The notes under the pieces were generated by a model. The model did not search any database and was not told where the DNA came from. It was given only the letters and a program-made list of their open reading frames with translations. 64,000 bases of DNA from Bacteroidota bacterium. Its GTDB lineage: Bacteria; Bacteroidota; Bacteroidia; B-17B0; Aurantibacillaceae. Positions 10,143 through 31,949 of the stretch are shown here, one piece after another. A program made the translations under genes and the position numbers. The stretch covers positions 21,087-85,086 of the forward strand of contig JABDCR010000004.1 in the NCBI GenBank assembly GCA_013288015.1, read 5' to 3'. Within the stretch, counting starts at the first letter, position 1; every line of letters starts with the position of its first letter.

Positions 10143-10147
10143 CTCCT

Positions 10148-10215
10148 GTCATTTCGAAGGAGGCACGACTGAGAAATCTGTTTAGAAACGGATTTCTCCC
10201 TCTGGTCGAAATGAC
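10148..10215. repeat. Palindromic intergenic element, copy A
   Basis: gtcatttcgaaggaggcacgactgagaaatctgtttagaaacggatttctccctctggtcgaaatgac: gtcatttcga / tcgaaatgac and gagaaatc / gatttctc arms. Confidence 0.85.
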
Positions 10216-10246
10216 AACACACAAGCGAAAGACAACAAACTATGAG

Positions 10247-15652: not shown

Positions 15653-16291
15653 TTGAAGAAAACCACTTTTATAATTGCCACGCTAATTTTCTGTTGTTTT
15701 ACTTTTTGGTTTTGCGAAAAAAATGCTTTAACCAATATTGAGATACACGGACGTGTACTTAATTTTTGGGATAAATCTCCTATGCCTTCTCAAGTACAAT
15801 TATGGGTAGGTGGTTCTATGCCGGGTACTAATGGTACTACCAATTATGGAAATTTTGCAACAAATGCCGATGGCAGTTTTGATGTAAAATCAAATGGCCA
15901 ATGGAACGGTAATGATTATACGCTTGTTTTTATCCCAGCAAATACCAGTGGAGATGAGTTTAATGCGCATTATACGGTAAGTAATAATCAAAATCTTAAT
16001 GCAGGTGATATTCTTACAGGTCACGTTACTATTGTCTGTAAAATAACGCTTAATTCTGTATCAGGAGCTTCAATTAATTTTTTGCAGATTGGGTCAGCCC
16101 CTCAAACTACTTTTACTGCCGGAACTCATACAGTTATTACAGCCTCCTCGTATTATGATAGCGATGCAATAAAAAATGTCGGTAATTTTTATCCGATTAC
16201 TTACAGCTTAAGTACCGGTACAACAGATACAACCATTATGGTTCCTTTGCATCCACCGGCAGATACTGCCAGTGTTACTATTAATTATTAA
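15653..16291 (+). CDS. Hypothetical lipoprotein
   Basis: LIFCCFTFWFCEKN lipobox; TTG start. Confidence 0.55.
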   Translation: MKKTTFIIATLIFCCFTFWFCEKNALTNIEIHGRVLNFWDKSPMPSQVQLWVGGSMPGTNGTTNYGNFATNADGSFDVKSNGQWNGNDYTLVFIPANTSGDEFNAHYTVSNNQNLNAGDILTGHVTIVCKITLNSVSGASINFLQIGSAPQTTFTAGTHTVITASSYYDSDAIKNVGNFYPITYSLSTGTTDTTIMVPLHPPADTASVTINY

Positions 16292-16313
16292 TAGTAAGCC
16301 TACTACCACACCC

Positions 16314-16332
16314 CACCAAATAATCAGCTAAA
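16314..16332 (-). repeat. Relic of Toprim-gene 3' end (copy 1)
   Basis: Minus strand reads ...LADYLVG; caccaaataatcagctaaa matches 24847 region. Confidence 0.5.
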
Positions 16333-16345
16333 CCAATATTGTAAA

Positions 16346-16918
16346 TTAATTGCGTTTTGTTTGGTAGTGCAGGGCAATTACGCCACAAGCAAATGTTTTG
16401 CTTTCTATAAATTTTAGTTTAGTTATTTCGGTAACATTTTTAAATAGTGGCATTCCTTTGCCAAGCAATATGGGGTTAACAAATAACCAAAACTCATCAA
16501 TTAGCCCCTCACTTAATAAGGAATGAGAAGCACGCGGGCTACCGAAAATTAAAATATTTTTTCCGGCCTGGTTTTTTATTTTATTTATGTTGTCTGCAAG
16601 GTGGTCGCTAATAACGGTAGTGTTGTTAAGTCCTTTTTCACTAAGTGTTTTTGATAAAACAATTTTTGAAACCTTGTTATACCAAGCCGAATGTTCTTTA
16701 TCGTGTTTAGATGCGTTTGGCTTTTCGCCCGCTTTTGGCCAATAAGCCTGCATCATATCATAGGTTACTCGGCCATAAAGTGCAGTATCGGCTTTGTCAG
16801 TCATAGTGCCAACAAAGTCAAACATAGCCTCGTCTAAAGTTATCCAGTTCATTTCTCCGTTAAGTCCTGCCACAAAGCCGTCAAGCGAAGTGTGCATAAA
16901 AAAAATTAAATTTCTCAT
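16346..16918 (-). CDS. Dihydrofolate reductase family protein (RibD C-terminal-like)
   Basis: MRNLIFFMHTSLDGFVAGLNGEMNWI...ILIFGSPRASHSLLSEGLIDEFWLFVNPILLGKGMPLF. Confidence 0.9.
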   Translation of the reverse strand: MRNLIFFMHTSLDGFVAGLNGEMNWITLDEAMFDFVGTMTDKADTALYGRVTYDMMQAYWPKAGEKPNASKHDKEHSAWYNKVSKIVLSKTLSEKGLNNTTVISDHLADNINKIKNQAGKNILIFGSPRASHSLLSEGLIDEFWLFVNPILLGKGMPLFKNVTEITKLKFIESKTFACGVIALHYQTKRN

Positions 16919-17002
16919 TTTAATTAGGTTTCTTGTTTTTTTGGGTGTATCAAAACTAATTATTTTCTGTAAATAGTAAAACGAAGCTTTGTTTTTAATC
17001 TA

Positions 17003-17038
17003 TTACAAGTTGCCAAATAATCGGCTAAATCTAAGTCT
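17003..17038 (-). repeat. Relic of Toprim-gene 3' end (copy 2)
   Basis: Minus strand gac tta gat tta gcc gat tat ttg gca act tgt aat aga = DLDLADYLATCNR. Confidence 0.65.
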
Positions 17039-17136
17039 TATAAAAATCTGGCATATTTTTTATGACCTATTAAAATCTTTTTGTTTGAGAAATTTGTTCT
17101 ACAACTAATTGTAAATAAATTGTAAAATTTGCAGTC

Positions 17137-17550
17137 ATGAAACCGCCCGAGAAAATATTTGAAACCAACAAATACAAACTAACCTTTCATAACATTAATT
17201 TTTATGAAATATTAATAAAAGAAAATGTAACATTAGATGTAGAACTACTTTTAGAGATTAAAAATATATCTGAAAATAATCACCTGCACACCAAATCCTG
17301 CATTTTAGTTGAAGGAGTAGGTTTTTTTAATGTAACAAAAGAAGTACGCGAATTAGGTGCCGAAAAAAAATTCTCTGCAAGAGCAATGGCTGTTGCCTGT
17401 TTTTTTAAAAACCCAAGCTTGTTGCTTATAGGCGAGTTATATAATAAAATTAATAAACCCGCTGTAGAAACAAAAATGTTTACCAATAGAGAAAAAGCAA
17501 AAAATTGGCTAAAATCCTTTATAGAAGCGGATAGTAATATTAGAATATAA
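17137..17550 (+). CDS. Hypothetical protein, STAS/SpoIIAA-like fold suspected
   Basis: 137 aa; alternating pattern ending NREKAKNWLKSFIE, as in small STAS-like Bacteroidota proteins. Confidence 0.5.
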   Translation: MKPPEKIFETNKYKLTFHNINFYEILIKENVTLDVELLLEIKNISENNHLHTKSCILVEGVGFFNVTKEVRELGAEKKFSARAMAVACFFKNPSLLLIGELYNKINKPAVETKMFTNREKAKNWLKSFIEADSNIRI

Positions 17551-17562
17551 TTTAGTTTTTTA

Positions 17563-17608
17563 TCTATTACAAGCCACCGAATTTAAACCTTGTTGTTTTT
17601 GTTGTGGC
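17563..17608 (-). repeat. Relic of Toprim-gene 3' end (copy 3)
   Basis: Minus strand ...QKQQGLN(gap)SVACNR*; shares the cttgtaatagat tail with copy 2. Confidence 0.6.
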
Positions 17609-17667
17609 TTGGCTTGAGGTTTTAATAAAGTAAAAAATTTCTATTTTTATGCGAGAAAATACCGGGC

Positions 17668-18249
17668 ATGGAAAAACATCTTCTTTTAAAAGAACTACAA
17701 TCTAAACATGATTTTTCTGAAGCTGATTTTGAGAAATTGTTACCACTGTTTGAAGAACGCAACTACAAAAAAAATGAAATGATTTTTAAAGCGGGCGATG
17801 TGGTGAAATATGTTTTTTTTATTCTTAAAGGTTGTTTCAGGCAATTTTATATTAATGCAAATGGCATGGAGCGAACTATTTATATAATGGAAGAAGGGCG
17901 TTGGACAGGAGAATCCTTAAGTTTTATGAACGAAATTCCTACCAATATGAATTTGCAGGCACTTGAAGATTGCAAGGTGTTGGCTATGACCAAACCTAAA
18001 TGGGAGTATGCTATTCGCAATATACCCGAGTATGCCTTGTACCATATGAAAAATCATCAGCGTATGATTGCCTGGTTAAAAGAACAACTGGGTGCTGCCG
18101 TTACCGAAAAACCCGATGAACTTTACCGCCGCTTATTAAATGAAACGCCACACCTGTTGCAACGCTTGCCACAATACGAAATTGCCAAGTACTTAGGTGT
18201 AACACCCGAAACTTTAAGTAGAATTAGAAAAAGAAATACCAGGCTGTAA
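17668..18249 (+). CDS. Crp/Fnr family transcriptional regulator
   Basis: cNMP-binding domain (FKAGDVVKYVFFILKGCFRQFYIN) and C-terminal HTH YEIAKYLGVTPETLSRIRKRN. Confidence 0.9.
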   Translation: MEKHLLLKELQSKHDFSEADFEKLLPLFEERNYKKNEMIFKAGDVVKYVFFILKGCFRQFYINANGMERTIYIMEEGRWTGESLSFMNEIPTNMNLQALEDCKVLAMTKPKWEYAIRNIPEYALYHMKNHQRMIAWLKEQLGAAVTEKPDELYRRLLNETPHLLQRLPQYEIAKYLGVTPETLSRIRKRNTRL

Positions 18250-18331
18250 ATCATTTCTTGATTTGAATCAAGATTTTTTAAAATAACACTCCGTTACTTT
18301 GCCTCATATAAACCAATAAAAAATAAAAAGT

Positions 18332-18685
18332 ATGAAAAAAGTAATTATCTCGGCAGCAGTTTTAGCAGTAACTACATTAAGCTTTGCATTTAAATATGCC
18401 GAAAGCGGAAAAAATGTAACCATCATTAACACGGTAGAAGTAAAAGATTATGCCGAGTTTAAAAAAGGGTTTGATGCAGGTGCGCCTATTCGCGAAAAAG
18501 GAGGCATTAAGGTTATAAACCTGTATCAATCGGTTGATAATAAAAACATGGTTACCATTATTGAAGAGGCAGCCAGTGCCGAAGCTGTTAAACAATTTTT
18601 TAGTAACCCCGACATGAAAGCCGCTATGGAAAAAACAGGCGTTATATCTAAACCCGATATGAAAATTTTAACCAAAGTTCAATAA
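18332..18685 (+). CDS. Secreted ABM-like (antibiotic biosynthesis monooxygenase fold) protein
   Basis: Signal peptide; VTIINTVEVKDYAEFKKGFDAGAPIREKGGIK...MVTIIEEAASAEAVKQFFSNPDMKAAM. Confidence 0.6.
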   Translation: MKKVIISAAVLAVTTLSFAFKYAESGKNVTIINTVEVKDYAEFKKGFDAGAPIREKGGIKVINLYQSVDNKNMVTIIEEAASAEAVKQFFSNPDMKAAMEKTGVISKPDMKILTKVQ

Positions 18686-18693
18686 TATCAGTT

Positions 18694-19125
18694 ATGAGTA
18701 ATCAGGAAATCATAAAGTTTGGCGGTATCGAAGTGCATTACAACCTTGATGCAAGCGATACGCAGAATGCCTTAACCTTGTTTAAGTGCGTTATACACCC
18801 CGGTTCAAAAATTGCCGCTGCACACTATCACGAGCATTTTGACGAAACGGTTTATAGTCTTAAAGGAACCGCCACTTACATAGTTGATGGAAAAACTATT
18901 GAGTTAAACCCCGGCGATTCTCTTTTTATACCGCGCGGTGTGGTACACGCTTTTGCAAATAAAAGTAATGAGCTTATTGAATTTCTTTGCTATTGCAGCC
19001 CCGGCTTAATGGTACCTGATTACTTTAAAGACATTGCCGAAATAATTAATGCAGGTGGCCCACCCGATATGGCAAAATTAAAAGAGGTTATGTTACATTA
19101 TGGTTTAGTGCCGGTGGTTGGATAA
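18694..19125 (+). CDS. Cupin domain-containing protein
   Basis: HYHEHFDETVYSLKGTATYIVDGKTIELNPGDSLFIPRGVVHAF. Confidence 0.88.
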   Translation: MSNQEIIKFGGIEVHYNLDASDTQNALTLFKCVIHPGSKIAAAHYHEHFDETVYSLKGTATYIVDGKTIELNPGDSLFIPRGVVHAFANKSNELIEFLCYCSPGLMVPDYFKDIAEIINAGGPPDMAKLKEVMLHYGLVPVVG

Positions 19126-19184
19126 ACCAGCGGCGCTTTAAACCATTTTATTTGTTATTTAATTTTTTTTGAATACAAAAAAAG

Positions 19185-19820
19185 ATGAACCCTAAAACAT
19201 TTTCGAACATAGAGAAAATTATCCAACTTGTACAAAAAGTTACACCACCTGTTATTTTGTTGTGCGCACTTGTATTGGGTTACACATCGGTTAACCCTTG
19301 GATAACCATGCCGGCAACACTAATGGCGCCGGTAGTAGGCATTGGCTTATCTAAATACGGGGCCAAAAAAAACAAATCTATGCGTTGGTATATTGCTATT
19401 ATAAATGGTTTACTGGTTTTTTTAATTTGTTGCTTAGCGGACAAAAACTCGCCTGTGTTTATTATTGGCATTACTAATATTTTATTTGTTTCTATTTACT
19501 TTCAAAAAACGGCGGAGAAGGCGGTTAATTTTTTATTTTCTTTTTCTTTACTAATCGGAGGCTCTTTGCTTTCTGAAATGCAAAGCCCACTTATTATTGA
19601 AGGGGCGCTACTGTTGGCACTATATGCGTTTGTGCTAAACCAAACTCTGTTATTTGTTGCTATGCAGAGTAAAGAAATACAACATCAAAAAGAAATAATA
19701 GAAGAAAAACACAAAGAGGTAATGGATAGCATACACTATGCAAAACGTATACAAAGTGCTTTAATTACTTCTGAAAAATCTATTGAGGCTAGTTTAAACA
19801 AACTAATGAAACAGAATTAA
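19185..19820 (+). CDS. Membrane protein ending in a KEVMDSIHYAKRIQSAL signalling-linker motif
   Basis: Several TM segments, then EKHKEVMDSIHYAKRIQSALITSEKSIEASLNKLMKQN*. Confidence 0.65.
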   Translation: MNPKTFSNIEKIIQLVQKVTPPVILLCALVLGYTSVNPWITMPATLMAPVVGIGLSKYGAKKNKSMRWYIAIINGLLVFLICCLADKNSPVFIIGITNILFVSIYFQKTAEKAVNFLFSFSLLIGGSLLSEMQSPLIIEGALLLALYAFVLNQTLLFVAMQSKEIQHQKEIIEEKHKEVMDSIHYAKRIQSALITSEKSIEASLNKLMKQN

Positions 19821-19823
19821 AAC

Positions 19824-19910
19824 TCACCAAATAATCAACTAAATCTAAGCCTTGTTGTTTTTCTGTTTGGGTGGCGTTGCGTTCTAACAAATTTGATACG
19901 GTAATTTTTT
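19824..19910 (-). repeat. Relic of Toprim-gene 3' end (copy 4)
   Basis: Minus strand ITVSNLLERNATQTEKQQGLDLVDYLV versus ISVSNLLQHNATETEKQQGLDLADYLV in 24833-25744 (22/27). Confidence 0.85.
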
Positions 19911-19942
19911 GCCTGACTATTAATGGAAATGAACACCACCAT

Positions 19943-20836
19943 TTACTTAGAGAATAACACGTATCCGTAAGTGTTGTTACCCAGCTTCCGCAATTGCTTC
20001 GGAAACAATAGTGAAGCCAGTTTTAAAGCCGGACTTAAAGGTAGTTTTTTTCCTATACGGTCGGCTTCGTCAAGAATATGAATGTCTTCGTAAATTTTCC
20101 ATCCATGCGAACTAAATAATTGCAACGGCCACTCTACATCAAATTGAATGGGTACCCGTTTCATTTTTTTAAGAAGATCGTTGGCCTGTTTGTGACGACG
20201 CATTTTGCCTTGCTGGTAGTCTTGTATCCAATAGTTGAAATTATTTTGTGCAAAAATATCTTTAGACAAGGTTTCGGCGTCTTCATTGCGCAGATATCCA
20301 ATTACACCTTCGGTGATAACCAAAGCGCTGGTACTTTTTAACGACAGCTGTTCAAATAGTGCTTTTCTTTGTACGGTATCTGAAAGATCGCATCCCAAAC
20401 GTTGCAAATTACACTGCGGTATTTCTGCAGCCAGTTTTTTTTCTTTATAGCTGATTAGTTCCGGATAATCTACTTCAGTCCACTTCAACGAGTTTGGCAG
20501 TTTTAGGCGGTACGGACGTGTATCAAGTCCTGCGCCGAGATTGATTATGTGATTAACGTTTTTTTGAAGTGCTGATTCAATGAGTCTGTCAATCGCCGTT
20601 GTGCGAACTATCATAGCAAACGACATGGCCTGAATATGAGGCATGCTTCGTGCCATTTCGAAACCTTGTTGTCCTGCAAGTTGTGCAGCTAACGGATCAC
20701 GTACAACCGGGTTGGCGAGCTCGGTTTCCATCGCCCTTAAAGCGGCAATCCAATGCGCAGTTTCAGAAATATGGTTAAAGTCTTTTTCCATACTTGTAAA
20801 AATAACTCTCTGCATTTGTTGGGTTTTCACCAACAA
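19943..20836 (-). CDS. Class I SAM-dependent methyltransferase, leucine carboxyl methyltransferase-like family
   Basis: RTTAIDRLIESALQKNVNHIINLGAGLDTRPYRLKLPNSLKWTEVDYPELISYKEKKL. Confidence 0.88.
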   Translation of the reverse strand: MLVKTQQMQRVIFTSMEKDFNHISETAHWIAALRAMETELANPVVRDPLAAQLAGQQGFEMARSMPHIQAMSFAMIVRTTAIDRLIESALQKNVNHIINLGAGLDTRPYRLKLPNSLKWTEVDYPELISYKEKKLAAEIPQCNLQRLGCDLSDTVQRKALFEQLSLKSTSALVITEGVIGYLRNEDAETLSKDIFAQNNFNYWIQDYQQGKMRRHKQANDLLKKMKRVPIQFDVEWPLQLFSSHGWKIYEDIHILDEADRIGKKLPLSPALKLASLLFPKQLRKLGNNTYGYVLFSK

Positions 20837-20874
20837 GCAATTAATTCTTTATAAATATACAAACTTTTGTTTCC

Positions 20875-20945
20875 CACCAAATAATCAGCAAAATCTAAGC
20901 CCTGTTGTTTTTCTGTTTGGGTGGCGTGACGTTCCAGTAAATCCT
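20875..20945 (-). repeat. Relic of Toprim-gene 3' end (copy 5)
   Basis: Minus strand EDLLERHATQTEKQQGLDFADYLVG. Confidence 0.85.
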
Positions 20946-20953
20946 CACGCTTT

Positions 20954-21032
20954 GTCATTTCGAAAAGGAATGAATGAGAAATCTGTTTGTGAATCTACTT
21001 AGAAACGGATTTCTCCCGCTGGTCGAAATGAC
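20954..21032. repeat. Palindromic intergenic element, copy B
   Basis: gtcatttcgaaaaggaatgaatgagaaatctgtttg...agaaacggatttctcccgctggtcgaaatgac. Confidence 0.85.
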
Positions 21033-21050
21033 AAGGAATTGAAAAGTTTA

Positions 21051-21707
21051 TTACATCACCAATAAGTTTTGAGTTACCTCATTACTTAAAATAGTTTGGT
21101 TGCTGTTATTAATTACAACCGTCATTGATTTATCGAAAGCCTGAATTTCTTTTACCTCAATGCTGTTGTTAATGGTTAAGCCTGTTTTATTAAGGAACTG
21201 CAAAAACGCTGTTGAGTGATTGCAAACCCCAACCAGCTTATATTTTTTATTTACCTGCGCATCGGCTAAAGTCATGGCTTTTAAGGCGGGCATTTTACCA
21301 TTTTTATCGGGTATAGGGTCGCCATGCGGGTCAAACTGAGGCGAGCCTAAAAATTTATCCAGCTGCTCCATTAGCTTTTCGCTTTGTATGTGTTCAAGTT
21401 GCTCGGCAACCTCGTGTACTTCGTCCCAACTAAAATTAAGTTTTTCGTATAAAAAGGTTTCCCACAAACGGTGCTTGCGTATAATTTTTAGTGCACTTTT
21501 TTTACCCGATGCCGTAACGGTTATTTTACCATACTTTTCGTAATCAATTAGTTTTTTTTCTTTCAGCCTTTTAAGCATATCGTTTGCAGTAGCTGTTTTA
21601 ACGCCCAAATTGGTAGCCAACTCGCTTGTGCCTGCTTCTTCATTAGGGTCATCCTGCGTTAAGCGGTATAGGGCTTTTAAATAGTTTTCTTCTGTAAACG
21701 ATAACAT
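21051..21707 (-). CDS. DtxR/MntR-family metal-dependent transcriptional regulator
   Basis: SFTEENYLKALYRL...TSELATNLGVKTATANDMLKRLKEKKLIDYEKYGKITVTASGKKSALKIIRKHRLWETFL. Confidence 0.9.
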   Translation of the reverse strand: MLSFTEENYLKALYRLTQDDPNEEAGTSELATNLGVKTATANDMLKRLKEKKLIDYEKYGKITVTASGKKSALKIIRKHRLWETFLYEKLNFSWDEVHEVAEQLEHIQSEKLMEQLDKFLGSPQFDPHGDPIPDKNGKMPALKAMTLADAQVNKKYKLVGVCNHSTAFLQFLNKTGLTINNSIEVKEIQAFDKSMTVVINNSNQTILSNEVTQNLLVM

Positions 21708-21774
21708 GGCACTAATTTAATAATTAAATATTTAAGCGGTGCTGCTATGGGATGCTGTGCGAATTTATCGGCAC

Positions 21775-23901
21775 TTACTTCTTCAAAACCTTAATGCACA
21801 AATCATCAAAGTAGCAGGTTTTATTGCCAAAATAATACAAGCACATAACTGCATTACCTGTAAAATTTTTTGTTAAACGTACTTTCAATTGTATTTTTTT
21901 CCAACCCTTACCCAAATCTGCAACAACATCCTGACTTACTCTTTCAAAGCTTTTATCATTTTGCAGCGATAAAATAATGCCCCCTACTTCATCTTCGGCA
22001 AGTCTGTTTACGCTTATCTCAACTTCATCGCCCGGTTTAACTTCAAAATTTACCCCTCCTATATAAGCATGTTTATTATTTGCTTTTAAGGAAGTAGTTG
22101 CCGAAGTAAATTGCTCTTTACAACTTACAGTTAACCCATCGCAAGTGTTTAAACCATCAGCCGATACAAAACCTGATTTGTTTGGAGCAATTTTTTCGAA
22201 ATCAAAATTTATGGTTACCGTGTTGCTATAATGTGGTTTTGCCAAAGCGGTATCAATGTGTATTACATAAAATTCGTCTCCCGTTTCGGGAAAAGTGCGG
22301 GCAAGCTCTATGCTTTTTACGGCATATTTATAATCTACTGTAATGCTATCAAGTACGCTTTGTTTAAAGGCTTCATCTTTTCGCAAAAAGTTAACCAGCA
22401 CTTCTGGGTACTTTTCAAAAATATCTGCATGCGGTGTTTCTCTGTAAAAGCAAAATATTTTATTCGGTATTTTTTCGTACATAAAAGTAGTAGGGTATCT
22501 TTTGCGCACATACTGGCGGCCTTGTTCAAAACTATCGCCCCCATAAGCTATACCAAAATTAAGTGCCGATTCAACAAAGCAACTCTCTTCGTAACCTGTG
22601 GTCATTATTTTAGGCATATTGCCAAATTGCTTGGCCGCTCCTATACTCGATATGTATTGCGGATTTCCTTTGGCATAACTGGTACCATAAAATTGCAATT
22701 TATAAAGTAACAAGCCTGTACTTACTGTTAGCATTAGTACTGCAATAAGCTTGTTTAATTTAATTTGCGAAAAAGCAACCAAGCCTGCTAAAACTGCCGG
22801 AATAGTTACTGCCCTTGCCGGAATTAAATAATGAAAACTATAATGCTTGGCAGCCAGCATAATTTGTAAAACTATAACCAGCCAAAAAGCCAATGCCAGT
22901 TTATAAAAACTACTTTTCCATTTTTTGGTAAACAAACCAACTATTACCATAATAGAAAGCAGTATAAACCCGGTGGTAAAAAAATACTCGTCGGCAAAAA
23001 GTGTTTTTAGGTTTTTTATATATTCTACCTTATCAATAATTTGTTCTTTGCCGCTGCCATATTGCCCCGAGTGCGTTGCCATGCCAAAAAACCATTTATA
23101 CATGCCTTTAAAACTATTCCAAACCGGATATAGAATTAACAAAGCAAAAACCGCTAAACCAATTATGTATATGATAAATTTTTTAGGCTTTTCAATAAAA
23201 AACAAAGGCACCAGTATAAAAGGCACACAGGTTATTTTAGCTACAAACAAAGCGGCTGTTACAAAAGCCATAAACAAAATTGACTTAGTGCTAATAGTAT
23301 AGCCATCTATCTTACTTTTTTTATAGCTCAGCACCCATAAAAAAGCACAGTAATAGGGTAGTGTTAGTAGCATAATATATTCGGGACACACCCTGATAAA
23401 AAAATGAAAATTTAAGTAAGCGCTTATAGCTATAAGCTGAAAAAAGAAAGCCGTAATATAATTGCCCGTGTTTTTGGCAATAAGTTTGCCTGCGGCATAT
23501 ACAGTAAGCATTATTAAAGCAATACAAACAATGGCATCGGCACGTAAATAAAACTCGGGGCGGTTAATTACATCCTCAACTACATTGCCTTTACCCAAAA
23601 AAAGATGCGTAAAAAAAATAATAATGCCTGCCAACCAATGAGCCGTTGTGCCGGGGTTGTCGTAATGACCTAAATCTATATGTCCGTTGGCAATGTTGGT
23701 TCCGTTTATTAAATAGATGTAAGTAGAATCGGTATAGGTTGTAAAAAAGTTTACCCCCTGGTAGTAGTAAAGCCAAGCAAACACACCATAAACTACCGGC
23801 AGCAAAAAAAGCAGGAAACTATTTTTTTTAGTGTACGATATTGCCGCACCCCCTGTAAAAACTGATTTTAGAGCCAATGATAGGTTGTTTTCGCTTTCCA
23901 T
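21775..23901 (-). CDS. Glycosyltransferase family 39-like polytopic membrane protein
   Basis: 708 aa with about 10 hydrophobic segments, GHYDNPGTTAHWLAG loop and extracytoplasmic C-terminal domain. Confidence 0.6.
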   Translation of the reverse strand: MESENNLSLALKSVFTGGAAISYTKKNSFLLFLLPVVYGVFAWLYYYQGVNFFTTYTDSTYIYLINGTNIANGHIDLGHYDNPGTTAHWLAGIIIFFTHLFLGKGNVVEDVINRPEFYLRADAIVCIALIMLTVYAAGKLIAKNTGNYITAFFFQLIAISAYLNFHFFIRVCPEYIMLLTLPYYCAFLWVLSYKKSKIDGYTISTKSILFMAFVTAALFVAKITCVPFILVPLFFIEKPKKFIIYIIGLAVFALLILYPVWNSFKGMYKWFFGMATHSGQYGSGKEQIIDKVEYIKNLKTLFADEYFFTTGFILLSIMVIVGLFTKKWKSSFYKLALAFWLVIVLQIMLAAKHYSFHYLIPARAVTIPAVLAGLVAFSQIKLNKLIAVLMLTVSTGLLLYKLQFYGTSYAKGNPQYISSIGAAKQFGNMPKIMTTGYEESCFVESALNFGIAYGGDSFEQGRQYVRKRYPTTFMYEKIPNKIFCFYRETPHADIFEKYPEVLVNFLRKDEAFKQSVLDSITVDYKYAVKSIELARTFPETGDEFYVIHIDTALAKPHYSNTVTINFDFEKIAPNKSGFVSADGLNTCDGLTVSCKEQFTSATTSLKANNKHAYIGGVNFEVKPGDEVEISVNRLAEDEVGGIILSLQNDKSFERVSQDVVADLGKGWKKIQLKVRLTKNFTGNAVMCLYYFGNKTCYFDDLCIKVLKK

Positions 23902-23974
23902 TTTTATAATAGCCGTTAAAGATACTTTTTTTTGCTATTCTACCACAACACGATTGAAGAGTAGCTGGTACAAG

Positions 23975-24204
23975 GTACAATTTTGTATACTATACTAAAC
24001 CTTGTACCACTTTATATAAATGACAAAACGTAATAAAATAGTGTTGAGGTTTGTTGTTGTCGCAAGGTTTCAAATCCAGCGGAGCGGGGGTACAATTTTG
24101 TATACTAAACTAAACCTTGTACCACTTTATATAAATGACAAAGCGTAATAAAATAATGTTGAGGTTTGTTGTTACCGCAGGATTTCAAATCCAGCGGAGC
24201 GGGG
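23975..24204. repeat. Two tandem copies of a 115-bp repeat (23975-24089, 24090-24204)
   Basis: Both read gtacaattttgtatact..aaccttgtaccactttatataaatgacaaa.cgtaataaaata.tgttgaggtttgttgtt...tttcaaatccagcggagcgggg. Confidence 0.9.
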
Positions 24205-24230
24205 AACAACAAAGGTAGAGTGGTTATAAT

Positions 24231-24794
24231 TTACTTCTCAAAATCCACACGCCAACCTTTTACACTCTTTTTATAATATCCATGTTGAAAAAGCTTATGG
24301 TCATATCCAAACAATTCATAATAAAATGTTCCATCAATATTATTAAACATTTTTGTATAATCTAATATTTCCTCCATTGAACATATCCCATTCTTGTCCC
24401 ACCTGAAAGCTTTTATTAAGACAGGTCTACCGTTTTGGTATAATTCTTCATAAGATGGGTTTCCATTCTTATATAAAAGTTTTAGAATTCCGTTAATTGG
24501 AGTTGGGTTACCTCTTTGAGATGTAATGCCACTATATTTAATAATATATTTTTTTGGTCTGGGATGTTTCGAGAAAGGATAAACACATTCACCAACATTG
24601 TCATACAATTCATATCCTATATAGAAGGCATTTTTCTTGTCTACTTTATTTGCGTATTCGTTAAGATAGACTTGCCAAAAACCAATTTTCTTATGCTTGT
24701 CATTATATTTATTAATTGTGTCAGAAAGATTCTGCGAAAAAAGATTGCTAATTGTAAGAAAAAGGGTGAGTATAAAAAATTGTCTGATTTTCAT
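24231..24794 (-). CDS. Hypothetical secreted protein
   Basis: Signal peptide ILTLFLTISNLFSQ; GFWQVYLNE...NGILKLLYKNGNPSYEELYQNGRPV (MORN/toxin-antitoxin-2-like text). Confidence 0.6.
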   Translation of the reverse strand: MKIRQFFILTLFLTISNLFSQNLSDTINKYNDKHKKIGFWQVYLNEYANKVDKKNAFYIGYELYDNVGECVYPFSKHPRPKKYIIKYSGITSQRGNPTPINGILKLLYKNGNPSYEELYQNGRPVLIKAFRWDKNGICSMEEILDYTKMFNNIDGTFYYELFGYDHKLFQHGYYKKSVKGWRVDFEK

Positions 24795-24832
24795 AAATTA
24801 TTATCGCTAACCCATTTATATGTTTGATAAAA

Positions 24833-25744
24833 TTACATAAAAGCCACCAAATAATCAGCTAAATCTAAGCCTTGTTGTTTTTCGGTTTCGGTGGCGTTGT
24901 GTTGTAATAAGTTTGATACGCTAATTTCGCAAATAGCTGATAGCTCTTTTGCTTTGGCGTTCCATTTTTCAAAGGCGTTTAAATCGGGGTAGAGGGTAAC
25001 CGTTTTACCTTTTAGCACGCTGCATTTTTTCAGCGTTAAATTGCTGAGGCTGCCAACGGCCAGCCAAATAAAATCAGGTAAATAAACACTGGCTATTAAG
25101 GCTGTTTTTTCGCTTTCTACCAGGGCAACTTGTTGGTTGTTGTGGGCTAACAAATGCTCGCCAAACAAACATTGCCGTAAATTAAAATGTGTCTGTCCAA
25201 TTGTTTTGTGCGCCCAGTGTATGTGGTTGTAGGGTTGCTTAACCCGCTTGCCTGTTATGGGGTTGTACAGCATGAGTTTGCCTGTATGTATTTTACCCAA
25301 GGCATCTACCTGCCAAAAAACAGTGGTACCCTGCCAGTATTTAGCTGTGCCAATGTAATATTTGTGTACTAATTTTTGTACCACATCAGCATTAAACAAG
25401 CTGCTTAAAAATTGCACAAAATGGTTGTTGCTGTATTGCTTTAGGCTGGCTGCAAAAACACTCTCAGGAATATACGATATGGCTTGTTGTGTAAGTGAAG
25501 TAGGAGGGGTGCAATAAATGGGTTTGGTATATGCTAAATTATTATCAATAAAATATTGTTTGGGTGTGTAGTGGTAGCCGCATTTGCTAAGGCGGTTACA
25601 TATGCCTACGGTGTGGTGTAAGGGCTGATTGGTTTCTGTATCAATGTAAAGAGTAAAGGTTTTATCCCTCTTTTTACATGCCGGACAAACAAACCGTGTG
25701 CTCATGCCCTTATAAGGTTGTAATATATATGGGTAGGTTTTCAT
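24833..25744 (-). CDS. Zinc-ribbon/Toprim-like mobile-element protein (DUF6371-like, primase-related)
   Basis: FVCPACKKRDKTFTLYID...GICNRLSKCGYHYTP zinc ribbon; VALVESEKTALIAS ... KGKTVTLYPDLNAFEKW Toprim-like motifs. Confidence 0.75.
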   Translation of the reverse strand: MKTYPYILQPYKGMSTRFVCPACKKRDKTFTLYIDTETNQPLHHTVGICNRLSKCGYHYTPKQYFIDNNLAYTKPIYCTPPTSLTQQAISYIPESVFAASLKQYSNNHFVQFLSSLFNADVVQKLVHKYYIGTAKYWQGTTVFWQVDALGKIHTGKLMLYNPITGKRVKQPYNHIHWAHKTIGQTHFNLRQCLFGEHLLAHNNQQVALVESEKTALIASVYLPDFIWLAVGSLSNLTLKKCSVLKGKTVTLYPDLNAFEKWNAKAKELSAICEISVSNLLQHNATETEKQQGLDLADYLVAFM

Positions 25745-25775
25745 TTAATACATTTTGTCACTTCGCTTGTGTGTT

Positions 25776-25901
25776 GTCATTTCGACCAGCGGGAGAAATC
25801 CGTTTCAAACAGATTTCTCAGGCTCGCCCTACAAGCTGGCTCTTCACTAAAAATATCCACAGGATATTTTCTTTACGTTCAGCCCTCTCCTTCGAAATGA
25901 C
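25776..25901. repeat. Palindromic intergenic element, copy C
   Basis: gtcatttcgaccagcgggagaaatccgtttcaaacagatttctcaggc...ccttcgaaatgac. Confidence 0.8.
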
Positions 25902-26062
25902 AAGCGCTGTTTTCATTTATAAAAAGTGGTGTAACAAAAAATATACATAGGGCTTTTGTTGTTATTACACCACTATTTAAATTATTATTATTATTTATTT
26001 GTACTAATATATTACTGGGTAAAGTGGTGTAATAATAACAAAGGGCATAGCAAATTAACTTG

Positions 26063-27187
26063 TTACACCACATTTGATTCATTATTAATTCTCCAACGTT
26101 TATCTACATCCTGTATAATCATTTTATAATCTTTCATGTCAGTAAATAAATTTTTTGAGGTGGACTTACTTTTTTGGGTTTGGTCCATTATTTTGAAAAT
26201 CGCATCGTGATACGTTAACGATGTTTGTCCGCCAAAAACTTGCTGGCAAATAATTTTGATAGAGTTTAAGCGGGTTTCGTTTTTATCCTCGCTTACACTG
26301 CGTATGCCGCAACCCACATGGTAGCCTTTATCTTTATCGTACATAAATTGTATGGCCGGTATATTGGCTTTGCCTGCCATGCGCAATAGCTTGGGCTCTA
26401 TAAACGAAATGTTGCCTTCGGTTTTAACCATCAGTAAACTTTCGCATTTACGCTGACACTGACTGCCTAAATGCCCTCGCTCTTTATCAGTACCCGGGTT
26501 GGTGTGCACTATTACTATAATGGGCATGTGATATTTTACGGCCAGCTCTTCAAAAAATTTTACAATAACCATGCTTTGTTCGGCATCGTTTACATCTTTT
26601 ATAAAATCGGCAATGCCATCAATTACCAGTAGGTGTATGCCGCCAAATTGTTGCAGGGCGCCTTCGCAAATGTCGCTGGTCATTTGCGCATATGTGGCAA
26701 TTTCAAGCTGACGTATGTTGTAGGATAATAAATAATCGCAGCCACTCATATTGGCACGCCGCAAAACCGACATAATATTTTTTAAGTGCTTGTGCTTTGC
26801 CTGTTCGGTATCCATGTGTATAACGGCTTTTTTATGTATGTTGGGTTGCACGTTTACAAACTCAAGTCCGTCAATTAAACCATCGGGGCTAATGGCACCT
26901 GCCATAAGGATACTTGTAAAAGCACTCTTACCGCTTTTGCTGGCGCCGCTAATGGTGGTTAGGTTGCCCTCGGTACTAATAATTTCATCGTTAATGGTTA
27001 TAACGGGCACAGGCTCGGCAATTTGCGAGTGCTCGCTTATGCGGTGCACTTCGTACACATCAAGCATGTTGGGGTTACGTAATTTATAAAGATGGCGCAT
27101 GGCATCTTCTTGTATATCCTTCAGCGTAATTTTTGGGTTTAGTGGTGGTACGTCTTTCATGGTTTTATAATTTTTACGAAAGTACAA
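26063..27187 (-). CDS. RepA-like AAA ATPase/helicase of mobile elements
   Basis: Walker A TTISGASKSGKSAFTSIL, Walker B IHLLVIDGIADF, VIVHTNPGTDKERGHLGSQ. Confidence 0.82.
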   Translation of the reverse strand: MYFRKNYKTMKDVPPLNPKITLKDIQEDAMRHLYKLRNPNMLDVYEVHRISEHSQIAEPVPVITINDEIISTEGNLTTISGASKSGKSAFTSILMAGAISPDGLIDGLEFVNVQPNIHKKAVIHMDTEQAKHKHLKNIMSVLRRANMSGCDYLLSYNIRQLEIATYAQMTSDICEGALQQFGGIHLLVIDGIADFIKDVNDAEQSMVIVKFFEELAVKYHMPIIVIVHTNPGTDKERGHLGSQCQRKCESLLMVKTEGNISFIEPKLLRMAGKANIPAIQFMYDKDKGYHVGCGIRSVSEDKNETRLNSIKIICQQVFGGQTSLTYHDAIFKIMDQTQKSKSTSKNLFTDMKDYKMIIQDVDKRWRINNESNVV

Positions 27188-27359
27188 AAGGTGTGGAATA
27201 ATACATTCTTTAAAACTGCCGTAAAGCCCTGTATGGCTGTACTGACGCTGTAATAAGTGTGTAATAATATATGAGAATCAGCTTATTGAAAATAAAAACA
27301 AGCCTGTGAATAGAAATATTTTGTTGGTAAGTTTTTGTTTTGTCTTTAGCCGGTGCGTT

Positions 27360-27446
27360 GTCATTTCGACCGCAGGGAGAAATCTGTATTTGGTATTAGA
27401 TTGTTTGCAAATAAAGATTTCTCGGTCGTTCCTTCTTCGAAATGAT
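27360..27446. repeat. Palindromic intergenic element, copy D
   Basis: gtcatttcgaccgcagggagaaatctg...aaagatttctcggtcgttccttcttcgaaatga. Confidence 0.8.
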
Positions 27447-27503
27447 TTTATTTTTGGTATTTTTAATTTATCTTTGATAACCCAAAATAATGGGCAATCA
27501 ATT

Positions 27504-27908
27504 ATGACAACAGGGAAAGAATTAGCAAATAGGCTTCTTGAAGACATTAATAAATCTGTAGCAATAAGACAAAAAGTTCAAGACCCATTTACTCAAGTAA
27601 GAAACATAGGCATAAGTGGACAAGCGGACTTAAGTGGCTTTATGTCCTCCTTAAATGTTTTAAGTTTTGATGGACACTTAGACATTCTTTCTCAATTCAT
27701 TAATTTTCATAAACGATTGGTTAATCACGATAAAGGGACTAAAGTTGATATTGCTGTTTGGCAAAAAGATGTTCAAAATAATCTTGATGAGATTGCACAT
27801 ACTTTCCAAGAAATTATCTCAAGTGACACGGAAGACGTTTTCACAGAAACTAAATTTTCTGAATTCTTAATTGAACAGTTGGGTTATCTACATGACGACG
27901 CTAATTAA
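27504..27908 (+). CDS. Hypothetical protein (134 aa; true start probably MTTGKELANRLLEDIN)
   Basis: Track ORF begins at 27306, but its first 66 codons translate the palindromic repeat; in-frame ATG at 27504. Confidence 0.55.
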   Translation: MTTGKELANRLLEDINKSVAIRQKVQDPFTQVRNIGISGQADLSGFMSSLNVLSFDGHLDILSQFINFHKRLVNHDKGTKVDIAVWQKDVQNNLDEIAHTFQEIISSDTEDVFTETKFSEFLIEQLGYLHDDAN

Positions 27909-27928
27909 ATAATCAGCTAAATCTAATG
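27905..27928 (-). repeat. Relic of Toprim-gene 3' end (copy 6)
   Basis: Minus strand PLDLADYLI. Confidence 0.5.
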
Positions 27929-27929
27929 G

Positions 27930-27961
27930 AAATACAGATTTCTCCCTCCGGTCGAAATGAC
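27930..27961. repeat. Half copy of palindromic element (copy E)
   Basis: aaatacagatttctccctccggtcgaaatgac. Confidence 0.7.
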
Positions 27962-28022
27962 AAAGCGTAATAAAATAGTGTTGAGGTTTGTTGTTGCATG
28001 GTTTCAAATCCAACGGAGCAGG
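27958..28022. repeat. Half copy of the 115-bp repeat
   Basis: gacaaagcgtaataaaatagtgttgaggtttgttgttgcatggtttcaaatccaacggagcagg. Confidence 0.85.
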
Positions 28023-28028
28023 CGGTAG

Positions 28029-28556
28029 TTAGTTCTGAAAATTTGGATCCCACCATTCTATTTTATTAATAATCCATTTGTTTTTAACGGGGTCCAGTTT
28101 TATATGAATTTTAATTGGGTCGGAATTGCCATGATATAATTGAGGCCTACTTACATATCCTTTATATGTGGCTCGCTGATAGAGTACTTCAATTGTTTTT
28201 TCTATTTTGTTTTTTTTTGATGACTTAATTTCATAGAAAAAACACATCTCTAAAGTAGTATCGTGTTTTAAAATTTTTAAAAACTCCTTCTCTGATTTAA
28301 TTGTATGATATTTTGCACAATTTATATTTACAGAACTATCTTTTGTTAATGCTGAACTATTTTCAATTTTAGCATAAACATCAAGGAAATTAATTTGTGC
28401 GTGCTTGCAATAAATAGAATCAAAAATAAAATCTGCATTAATTTTTTTTTGAGAGAAACAATATTGAACGAATATAAAAAGGACAATAAGAAATGTTATT
28501 TTCTTCATGATTTGAATATTATAAGATTGGCACGTCGTTCCTACTTGCAATGACAA
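28029..28556 (-). CDS. Hypothetical secreted protein
   Basis: In-frame start MKKITFLIVLFIFVQYCFSQ gives a signal peptide. Confidence 0.55.
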   Translation of the reverse strand: MSLQVGTTCQSYNIQIMKKITFLIVLFIFVQYCFSQKKINADFIFDSIYCKHAQINFLDVYAKIENSSALTKDSSVNINCAKYHTIKSEKEFLKILKHDTTLEMCFFYEIKSSKKNKIEKTIEVLYQRATYKGYVSRPQLYHGNSDPIKIHIKLDPVKNKWIINKIEWWDPNFQN

Positions 28557-28559
28557 GCA

Positions 28560-31500
28560 CTACATATTCCTTCTATACTGTCCGCCTACTTCAAATAAAG
28601 CATGGGTAATTTGCCCCAGGCTGCAATATTTTACGGTTTCCATTAAGGAGTTAAAAATGTTTCCGTTTTGTACTGCAACGTGTTGTATCTCTTTCAGTTT
28701 TTCTTTACCGGTAGTGCCTGCGTTTTTCCAAAGGGTTTGCACGGTTTGTATTTGAAACTCTTTTTCCTCTTCGGTACTGCGTATAACTTCTTTCGGTATA
28801 ATGGTTGGCGAACCTTTGCTCGATAAAAATGTATTTACTCCCACAATAGGATACTCGCCCGTGTGTTTCAAGGTTTCGTAATACAAACTCTCTTCCTGTA
28901 TTTTGCCGCGTTGGTACATGGTTTCCATAGCGCCTAAAACACCGCCACGTTCGCTTATACGGTCAAATTCGGTTAGCACGGCTTCTTCTACCAAGTTGGT
29001 AAGTTCCTCTATTATAAACGAACCCTGTAACGGGTTTTCGTTTTTAGCCAAGCCTAATTCTTTATTAATAATTAATTGTATAGCCATTGCACGGCGCACA
29101 CTCTCTTCGGTTGGGGTTGTAATGGCTTCATCATACGCGTTTGTGTGTAATGAATTACAATTATCATAAATGGCATACAGTGCTTGCAGCGTAGTACGTA
29201 TATCGTTAAAGTCAATTTCTTGCGCGTGTAAACTTCTGCCACTTGTTTGTATATGGTACTTCAACATTTGCGAACGCTCGTTTCCGCCGTATTTAAATTT
29301 CATGGCCTTAGCCCAAATTTTACGAGCCACTCTACCAATTACACTATACTCTGGGTCGATGCCATTACTAAAAAAGAAAGATAAGTTAGGCGCAAAATCA
29401 TCTATGTGCATGCCACGGCTTAAATAATACTCAACAAACGTAAAGCCATTTGCAATGGTAAAGGCAAGTTGTGATATAGGATTAGCACCTGCTTCGGCAA
29501 TGTGGTAACCCGATATTGAAACCGAATAAAAATTACGGACTTTGTTATCAATAAAATATTGTTGCACATCGCCCATAACACGTAACGAAAACTCGGTGCT
29601 GAAAATGCAGGTGTTTTGTGCCTGGTCTTCTTTTAAAATATCGGCTTGCACGGTACCGCGTACTTGTGCCAGTGTATCTACTTTAATTTTTTCGTACACA
29701 TCTTTAGGTAAAACCATATCGCCTGTTACACCAAGCAACATTAAACCTAAACCATCATTTCCCTCAGGTAAAGCACCGTTATATTTTGGGCGCGCTATGC
29801 CTTTTGTTTTGTAAATGGCATCAATTTTCTTTTCGGTTTCTTTTTCTAAACCGTTTTTCTTAATGTAGATTTCGCATTGCTGGTCTATGGCGGCATTCAT
29901 AAAAAATGCTGCTATAATTGCTGCCGGACCATTAATGGTCATAGATACCGAAGTTTTTGGGTCGGCTAAATTAAAACCGCTATATAATTTCTTCGCATCA
30001 TCTAAACAGCAAACACTAACACCGCTGTTACCCACCTTGCCATAAATATCGGGGCGGTAATCTGGGTCTTGCCCATATAAAGTAACACTATCAAATGCTG
30101 TACTTAAACGTGCAGCAGGCAAACCTTTACTTACATAATGAAAACGTTTGTTGGTTCTCTCGGGCCCACCCTCGCCGGCAAACATACGTGCAGGGTCTTC
30201 GCCTTCGCGCTTAAACGGATAAATGCCCGCAGCGTAAGGAAATTCCCCGGGAAAATTTTCGGTTAAATTCCATTTCAACACATCGCCCCACGAACGGAAT
30301 TGTGGCACAGCAATTTTTGAAATTTGTGTGTGCGATAAACTTTCGTAATGCGTTTTAATTTTAATTTCTTTATCGCGTACTTTAAAAACATAGTACTCGT
30401 TGGTATATTGTTTTTTGCGGTCTTCCCAAGTATCCAGTAATTTTTTGTTGTGCCCGTCTAAATCAAGTGCAATGGTTTCGTATTCTTCTTCTAAAGATTT
30501 AATCAGTCTATCTCTATCAGCCATTTTACTATCGCGCAACGTATCAATGGTTTTACGAATGCCGTAAAGTTTCTCTGCAATATCGGATTGCAGATTGGCT
30601 TTTTTATCGTAAGCGCGGTTGTTTTCTGATATCTCACTTAAGTAACGCGTGCGGGCAGGAGGGATGATGTAAATTTTTTCGCTCATCTCGTTTGTAATCA
30701 CAAAATTCGATTTTAAATCGGCTCCTGTGCGTTCAACCATTTTATCCATTACCGCTTTGTACAGGCGGTTCATGCCAGGGTCGTTAAACTGAGATGCAAT
30801 GGTGCCGTAAACAGGTAAAGCATCATCACTTGCATCCCACAAATTATGATTGCGTTTGTATTGTTTCTTCACATCACGTATTGCATCAAGTGCGCCACGT
30901 TTATCAAATTTGTTTAAAGCAATAACATCGGCAAACTCAATCATGTCAATTTTTTCTAACTGAGTAGCTGCACCGTATTCGGGTGTCATCACATACAAGC
31001 TCATGTTACTGTGCTCGGTAATTTCGGTATCGCTTTGCCCAATGCCCGCAGTTTCTAAAATAACCAAATCAAAGTTAGATGCCTTTAAAATATCTACCGC
31101 ATCTTTCACATATTTAGATAATGCTAAGTTACTTTGGCGAGTTGCCATACTACGCATAAAAACACGGTCGTTGCGAATGGCATTCATACGGATTCTATCG
31201 CCCAATAAAGCACCGCCTGTTTTGCGTTTACTTGGGTCAACCGAAATAATGCCTAAGGTTTTTGTTGGGAAATCAATTAAAAAACGACGCACCAATTCAT
31301 CAACCAACGATGATTTACCTGCACCACCCGTACCCGTTATACCCAACACAGGTGTTTTAGATTTGCTTGCCTGCTCGTGAATTTTTTTAAGCATGGCTGC
31401 ATTTTCTTCGCCATGATTTTCGGCCGCAGAAATTAAACGTGCGATGGATTTATGATCTCTTTCTTGTAAATGAGCAACCTCTCCGTTTAATTTAATACTT

Positions 31501-31949
31501 GGGTCGTAGTCTGATTGCTGAAGCAAATCGTTTATCATGCCTTGCAAACCAAGCGCACGTCCATCATCCGGACTATAAATTCTGGTAATGCCGTATTTGT
31601 GTAACTCTTCAATCTCGGTTGGTAAAATAACACCGCCACCGCCGCCAAATATTTTAATGTGCGAGCAACCGCGTTCTTTCAACAAATCGTACATGTATTT
31701 AAAATACTCTACGTGTCCGCCCTGGTAGCTGGTAATGGCAATGGCATTGGCATCCTCTTGTATGGCGCAGTTAACCACATCTTGTACCGAGCGGTCGTGC
31801 CCCAAATGTATAACCTCGGTACCGCTGCCCTGCATAATACGGCGCATAATATTAATGGCTGCATCGTGCCCGTCAAAAAGTGCTGCTGCGGTAACAATGC
31901 GTATTTTATGTTTTGCCTGATACGGTTTTGCTTCAATCATCATAGTCAA
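28560..31949 (-). CDS. icmF: Fused isobutyryl-CoA mutase (B12-binding + MeaB-like GTPase + mutase)
   Basis: [32 protein letters not shown]12-binding; [18 protein letters not shown] domain; mutase [26 protein letters not shown]. Confidence 0.93.

Follow-up and report, generated by a model that had tools for sequence, protein, structure and literature searches.

A candidate origin-like hairpin region within a Toprim–ATPase block, probably a replication module left stranded by an integrative element of Bacteroidota

The window, i.e. the whole stretch of 64,000 nucleotides analysed here, contains a block of four genes, matching the gene content given in the first-pass annotation. The minus strand carries a gene for a 187-aa secreted hypothetical protein (24231–24794; 29.6% GC), regarded only as a putative module member, together with a Toprim primase-like gene of 303 aa (24833–25744) and a gene for a helicase-like ATPase with a RecA/DnaB fold and a C-terminal winged helix (26063–27160). 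A 134-aa gene, for which no family assignment was found, is located on the plus strand (27504–27908). The HMM search proposed in the annotation confirmed the domain content, yielding E-values of 5.7e-62 for DUF6371 and 8e-27 for the N-terminal Zn ribbon (Zn_ribbon_16) of the Toprim protein as well as 1e-7 for AAA_25 in the ATPase.

The ESEK and PDL motifs of the Toprim protein are invariant in the alignment (A9), and comparison by sequence with solved structures gave no match. Its carboxy-terminus is short, with 303 aa in total versus about 424 aa in several of the nearest relatives. The protein belongs to the same family as the DUF6371/PG0870-type Toprim genes found on elements and plasmids of Bacteroidota, including Bacteroides plasmids (best match 46%), but differs from these in its reduced length and in having an ATPase partner of another lineage. 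Among the 80 nearest Toprim loci, the best match to the window ATPase reached 30%. As this ATPase is thus not the usual partner of its Toprim, the two genes appear to form a recombinant pair and not a standard unit, and each gene may stem from a different element lineage.

The ATPase gene likely starts with the ATG at 27160, the listed TTG at 27187 lying upstream. Comparison with PHROGs indicated DnaB-like families at 1e-5, and no significant match was found among PDB sequences. In the AF2 model (pLDDT 71) the predicted winged helix comprises residues ~291–358. Foldseek returned DnaB as best match (1e-11) with RecA/RAD51 similar, and RepA of the IncQ type (RSF1010) was not among the 50 best matches listed; with DnaB and RecA/RAD51 as top matches the fold does not point specifically to RepA. 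Searching viral contigs with the window ATPase gave none, and plasmids and phages yielded distant relatives only. In the bifunctional DNA primase/helicase annotated for Bacteroidota plasmids in PLSDB, the helicase part shares 28–31% identity with the window ATPase across about 80% of the length; there both parts are annotated as a single protein, whereas the window holds two genes with hairpins between them.

These hairpins form an origin-like region (25925–26072) directly 3′ of the ATPase gene, its last bases overlapping the ATPase stop. Two 50-bp hairpins in opposite orientation (25925–25974 and 26023–26072), with the arm TTGTTACACCAC, flank a spacer of 88% AT (25975–26022). CM matches of the two hairpins were 59 and 65 bits, and of 426 window segments, 1 attained the inverted-repeat score of the region. 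The perfect-arm pattern occurs three times in 2.47 Mb, each time adjoining an ATPase gene (control 0). Rfam gave only chance-level matches below the cut-off in the window, one of which, to a plant microRNA model (E 0.33), overlaps the hairpins. The origin of phage-inducible chromosomal islands (PICIs) follows rep on its 3′ side and comprises an AT-rich region with a set of iterons to either side (PMC6092414), and by analogy the hairpin region is a candidate replication origin: position, opposed sets and AT-rich spacer appear to fit, whereas the hairpin form differs. In the window, a +/− pair is formed within each hairpin, whereas in relatives direct iterons face inverted ones; the architecture is thus similar but not identical.

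In Bacteroidota relatives the order integrase, HTH, ATPase, Toprim is common, and at one locus (L072) a perfect 46-bp att-like direct repeat surrounds the whole gene set. An inverted repeat within the 150 bp before Toprim was detected at 54 of 86 loci (p ≤ 0.05 against windows of the same locus). Strong inverted repeats precede Toprim at 56% of the loci versus 4.7% upstream of other ORFs (Mann–Whitney 1e-22, a value that ignores the relatedness of the loci); for about a third of the relatives no significant inverted repeat was found. The repeat sequences diverge widely while their position and opposed orientation persist, and units of the TGTTACA type are present in about 22 near relatives. 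A hairpin model built from the window genome alone had its best outside matches at L202, L164 and L091. The L202 match (E 0.003) follows the ATPase stop at a distance of about 14 bp in an integrase-bearing element whose ATPase is 48% identical; those at L164 and L091 lie in the ATPase–Toprim gap and are the top two in 1.12 Mb, albeit weak (E 0.03–0.05).

Within the genome, the hairpins constitute a covarying family with 14-bp stems and about 24-nt loops, found at six or more places including both fully visible ATPase loci, at an array density of about one per 400 kb. The family was undetected in 749 kb of two congeners, and Rfam searches around the other arrays had no match at curated thresholds. 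A location solely beside ATPase genes was dropped upon finding arrays without an ATPase. On C61, the ATPase has hairpins on either side. Since arrays also occur far from any ATPase (C1, C15, C27, C49), the gap copy could be an insertion. It is conceivable, though rather unlikely, that some other enzyme has dispersed the hairpins as a REP/REPIN- or MITE-like family, with one copy situated by chance between ATPase and Toprim; left-left-right-right arrays would then result from a left-right unit that became nested in another unit's spacer. Arrays remote from the module occupy the space between genes, next to gene 3′ ends, and thereby agree with such a family, as do the GTCATTTCGACC repeats flanking the C1 array and the order of minus before plus hairpins, kept throughout the four arrays counted (C1, C4, C15, C49; chance 0.001 under random orientation), as nesting predicts. 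REP/REPIN sequences (PMC3733652) are likewise intergenic palindromes, clustered and paired in opposite orientation, but they carry a GTAG or CGTC tag at the foot, a stem of 5–13 bp and a loop of 2–20 bp. The hairpins of the window genome have a longer stem and loop, few copies, adjoining ATPase genes and no conserved tag, their paired feet varying between GTGG, GTGT, CTGG and CCGT. Furthermore, both ATPase loci with visible flanks carry hairpins (chance about 2e-5), at L202, which belongs to another family, a matching hairpin immediately follows the ATPase, and no mobilising enzyme was identified. More speculatively, and in our estimate improbably, the dispersed arrays could be orphan copies of the element's replication origin, either origin-only parasites copied in trans by the helicase–primase pair, or a protection of the cell by titration or handcuffing of the replication protein of incoming relatives.

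The first-pass annotation had described the block as an island bracketed by direct repeats that may be a minimal, non-autonomous or immobilised element. Repeats do exist at both edges, with a 115-bp tandem pair on the left (23974–24088 and 24089–24203; 94%), containing a degenerate hairpin, and a third copy on the right (27955–28022), limited to the last ~68 of the 115 bp at about 89%. Their presence on both sides in direct orientation speaks for an element bounded by them. However, the right copy is partial and fused to a dispersed GTCATTTCGACC repeat, starting where that repeat stops, with AAATGACAAAGCG common to both; the other ATPase copies (C61, C43) lack the 115-bp repeat, no recombinase was found in the window by tblastn, and the tandem pair includes a weak member of the dispersed hairpin family (23964–24011; 20 bits, E 0.014). 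A long-match search of the assembly found the 115-bp block nowhere else, and with long copies absent elsewhere its role as att was rejected. We thus consider a mobile element with these bounds highly improbable. The repeats fail as the specific att boundaries of a PICI and are probably not element ends but degenerate copies from a hairpin family that is specific to the species and akin to the origin-like hairpins. Repeats of the GTCATTTCGACC type (21 genome copies within 3 mismatches, control 0) also lie between Toprim and the hairpins (25774–25907), and an inverted pair of 37 nt with 95% complementarity (27355–27391 and 27930–27966) flanks the 134-aa gene.

Fragments of the Toprim gene, always comprising its last 20–130 bp in one orientation, are present at six nearby sites and at one elsewhere (C14). 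Neither these (16309–20954 and 27905–27926) nor the hairpins had been seen in the first-pass annotation, and both are better-supported anatomy in and around the block than the bracketing repeats. On the minus strand we located fragments a to e at 16309–16334 (nhmmer E 0.013), 17001–17039 (1e-5), 17570–17629 (2e-4), 19810–19922 (5e-33) and 20862–20954 (1e-24), and fragment g at 27905–27926 (0.08), which contains an exact 20-mer and overlaps the stop of the 134-aa gene. Including the intact gene there are eight copies, seven of them within 12 kb on one strand, the next nhmmer match being at noise. DGR-like variation of the Toprim end was rejected, as the copy differences in the alignments are not confined to adenines, and an integron attC core was not seen by eye. 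The Toprim 3′ end might be an integration site for successive elements, each displacing the older gene end and leaving the most decayed fragments furthest away. This possibility, which we rate as less likely than not and judge on its own, would be compatible with the main explanation below. In line with it, the copies are co-oriented and clustered, the two nearest downstream fragments are best preserved and three further ones short, and the gene's end is common to all fragments while the other side differs. On the other hand, fragment g lies upstream of the Toprim gene, one fragment is on another contig, lengths range from 20 to about 130 bp rather than reflecting one fixed core, no integrase was found, and none of 80 relatives has such fragments.

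Using proteins of the relatives as tblastn queries, we found no integrase homology in the window, C61, C43 or C14, and no excisionase or TerS homology in the window; no relaxase was among the Pfam matches of the ORFs scanned (15653–31949). The lack of recombinase and relaxase noted in the first-pass annotation is thereby corroborated, and of the ICE/IME hallmarks (relaxase or conjugation genes plus integrase) relaxase and integrase are missing to this extent. Because the ATPase–Toprim gap with its inverted repeats resembles PICI origins, the block is probably a replication module left stranded by an integrative element of Bacteroidota, of phage-satellite-like or IME type. The earlier idea of a mobile-element replication module thus stands as to module type, with the Toprim of relatives standing behind int-HTH-ATPase, integrase loss and a most likely immobilised state, but not as to the 115-bp repeats as boundaries. 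In such a module, the ATPase would act as a helicase whose C-terminal winged helix binds the adjoining hairpin/iteron region, melting the AT-rich spacer between the hairpins, where the DUF6371 Toprim protein would prime synthesis. In intact relatives, integrase and an HTH excisionase-like protein would insert and excise the element; as both are gone here, the module would be immobile on its own.

Like the pri-rep-ori replication module of PICIs (PMC6092414), the block has a replication gene followed by repeats around an AT-rich spacer, with a primase-type gene adjoining; judged by sequence and model, the DUF6371 Toprim and the RecA/DnaB-fold ATPase may represent the primase and replication initiator. 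Relatives have further PICI-like genes, i.e. integrase, an excisionase-like HTH and, in L171 and L174, terminase-small-subunit-like genes. Unlike PICIs, the window lacks integrase, HTH and TerS, its primase is of the DnaG-type Toprim DUF6371 kind, hairpins replace simple iteron sets, and no helper phage is known; the papers found do not describe PICIs in Bacteroidota. Retention of the ATPase–Toprim pair by the host for a cellular function would agree with both frames being intact and with three ATPase copies persisting in the genome. We regard it as very unlikely, since Toprim is absent from all six congeners, where no ATPase is closer than 28% identity either, the C61 ATPase copy has no Toprim, and fragments crowd the surroundings of the module. 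In the comparison with congeners for an empty site, gene order downstream of the neighbouring mutase gene was not shared; it differs in all three with a visible junction.

For DUF6371 we found one paper naming the domain, with a single mention, though the genes are widespread in Bacteroidota elements. The footprint left by the Toprim 3′-end fragments may document a series of integrations. Orphan origins, if true, would be a novel type of repeat in the chromosome, descended from the origin of a mobile element, and their protective variant would be an immunity of the iteron-incompatibility kind. The inverted-repeat region that separates helicase from primase, conserved but fast-changing, offers a direct guess at where replication of these elements starts; it also suggests a class of replicons in a phylum that has received little study.

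The genes lying between the repeats agree with the first-pass annotation, which had proposed an island of about 4 kb (23975–28022) carrying a Toprim and a RepA-like ATPase gene. The Toprim gene (24833–25744, minus strand) encodes DUF6371 and zinc-ribbon domains, and the ATPase gene (26063–27160, minus strand) an AAA_25 domain. The predicted ATPase structure (mean pLDDT 71) comprises a RecA-type core and a carboxy-terminal winged helix; as Foldseek placed DnaB first for this structure with RecA/RAD51 close behind, the label RepA-like is not established.

The repeats claimed at both edges are indeed present, as a 115-bp tandem pair (23974–24088 and 24089–24203; 94% identity) on the left and a third copy comprising only the last 68 bp (27955–28022) on the right. 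They are poor island boundaries, as the partial third copy is fused to a GTCATTTCGACC repeat, beginning at its end with AAATGACAAAGCG common to both, and as the 115-bp repeat is absent beside the two further ATPase copies of the genome, on contigs C61 (70% identical) and C43 (78%, truncated where the contig stops). As a long match, it has no further copy in the assembly of this 58%-complete, 2.47-Mb genome. The GTCATTTCGACC repeat has 21 genome copies within 3 mismatches (reversed control, 0), and its core gave 14 matches in the own-genome sample versus 0 in samples of two congeners; within the window, the dispersed GTCATTTCGACC..GGGAGAAATCT repeats occupy 10147–10235, 20945–21034, 25774–25907, 27355–27445 and 27930–27963. 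A 134-aa gene of unknown family lies inside inverted GTCATTTCGACC repeats (95%; 27355–27966). The C61 ATPase copy (locus L038, 628–2000) is without Toprim, adjoins a DUF4062 gene and is flanked on both sides by 56-bp inverted repeats (91%).

Homology searches of the window and contigs C61, C43 and C14 revealed no integrase, excisionase or TerS. Toprim was found in 0/6 congeners, which also contained no ATPase closer than 28%, and no synteny downstream of the mutase neighbouring the block was detected in three congeners compared. Across Bacteroidota, Toprim relatives occur in 379 candidate stretches; within the family, 10 of 87 genomes contain one. Most of the 80 nearest loci have an ATPase upstream of Toprim, along with an integrase and/or HTH gene; in one relative (L072) a perfect 46-bp direct repeat encloses the gene set, and two viral-collection relatives carry terminase-small-subunit-like genes. 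HTH genes resembling those of integrative relatives lie elsewhere in the own genome (L211 7347–7646; L220 5263–5541). The window ATPase is of another lineage than Toprim's usual partners, the best of which in these 80 loci reaches 30%; its nearest relative (48–49%) belongs to L202, an int-bearing element without Toprim. The block reads as a replication module left stranded from an element of known kind, a recombinant gene pair with an origin-like region.

Just before the Toprim start, relatives exhibit opposed short repeats whose sequence varies between elements. Compared with 60 windows drawn at random from its own locus, an inverted repeat before Toprim yielded p ≤ 0.05 in 54 of 86 loci, p-values that overstate independence because the loci are related, although the repeat sequences differ widely. 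Strong inverted repeats were present in 56% of gaps before Toprim, compared with 4.7% of the stretches preceding other ORFs. The window ATPase–Toprim gap contains two 50-bp hairpins (25925–26072) with an 88% AT spacer between them. Origins of phage-inducible chromosomal islands lie directly 3' of rep, with an AT-rich region between two iteron sets (PMC6092414); by analogy with these, and with a layout that is not identical, we infer that the window hairpin region is a candidate replication origin.

These covarying 50-bp hairpins recur in arrays on contigs C1 (L208 14441–14810), C15 (L204 8100–8432), C27 (L205 7721–8250) and C49 (L206 7054–7375); the arrays have AT-rich linkers, opposed halves and a period of about 86–98 bp where regular. 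Hairpins also stand on both sides of the C61 ATPase. In each of the four arrays that were counted (C1, C4, C15, C49), the minus-oriented hairpins are on the left and the plus-oriented ones on the right, C27 being less clear. Among 15 hairpins, 32 stem cells were changed on both sides, which 0 of 500 shuffles reached; the alignment was oriented by hand and the hairpins are related, so that this represents support and not a probability. An unbiased 399-kb sample of the own genome contained one clear array and 749 kb of two congeners none; with about 1.8 expected at equal density, the absence of the family from these congeners is suggestive only. A competing reading assigns the hairpins to a REP/MITE-like family. 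The best outside matches of the hairpin model lie behind the L202 ATPase and, with weak E-values, in the ATPase–Toprim gaps of the relatives L164 and L091, tying the family to these replication modules. The genome has multiplied hairpins related to those of the origin-like region.

Pieces of the Toprim gene's 3' end, 20 to about 130 bp in length, recur co-oriented at six places within 12 kb (16309–16334, 17001–17039, 17570–17629, 19810–19922, 20862–20954, 27905–27926) and once on C14 (L040 5573–5686), the next match being noise. Those in the window sit at gene boundaries. On C14 the fragment follows another gene's stop codon in frame (L040 4011–5690). Nothing better than E 0.6 turned up in another 442 kb of the own genome, and none of the 80 relatives had such fragments. 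Of the fragments downstream of the intact gene, the closest two are the best preserved and the other three are short, as serial integration into the Toprim 3' end would produce; we nevertheless consider this explanation rather unlikely, given that fragment lengths vary and that the fragment at 27905–27926 lies on the opposite side of the gene. As an island the block is ordinary; what is unusual about it is the hairpin family, together with the Toprim end fragments.
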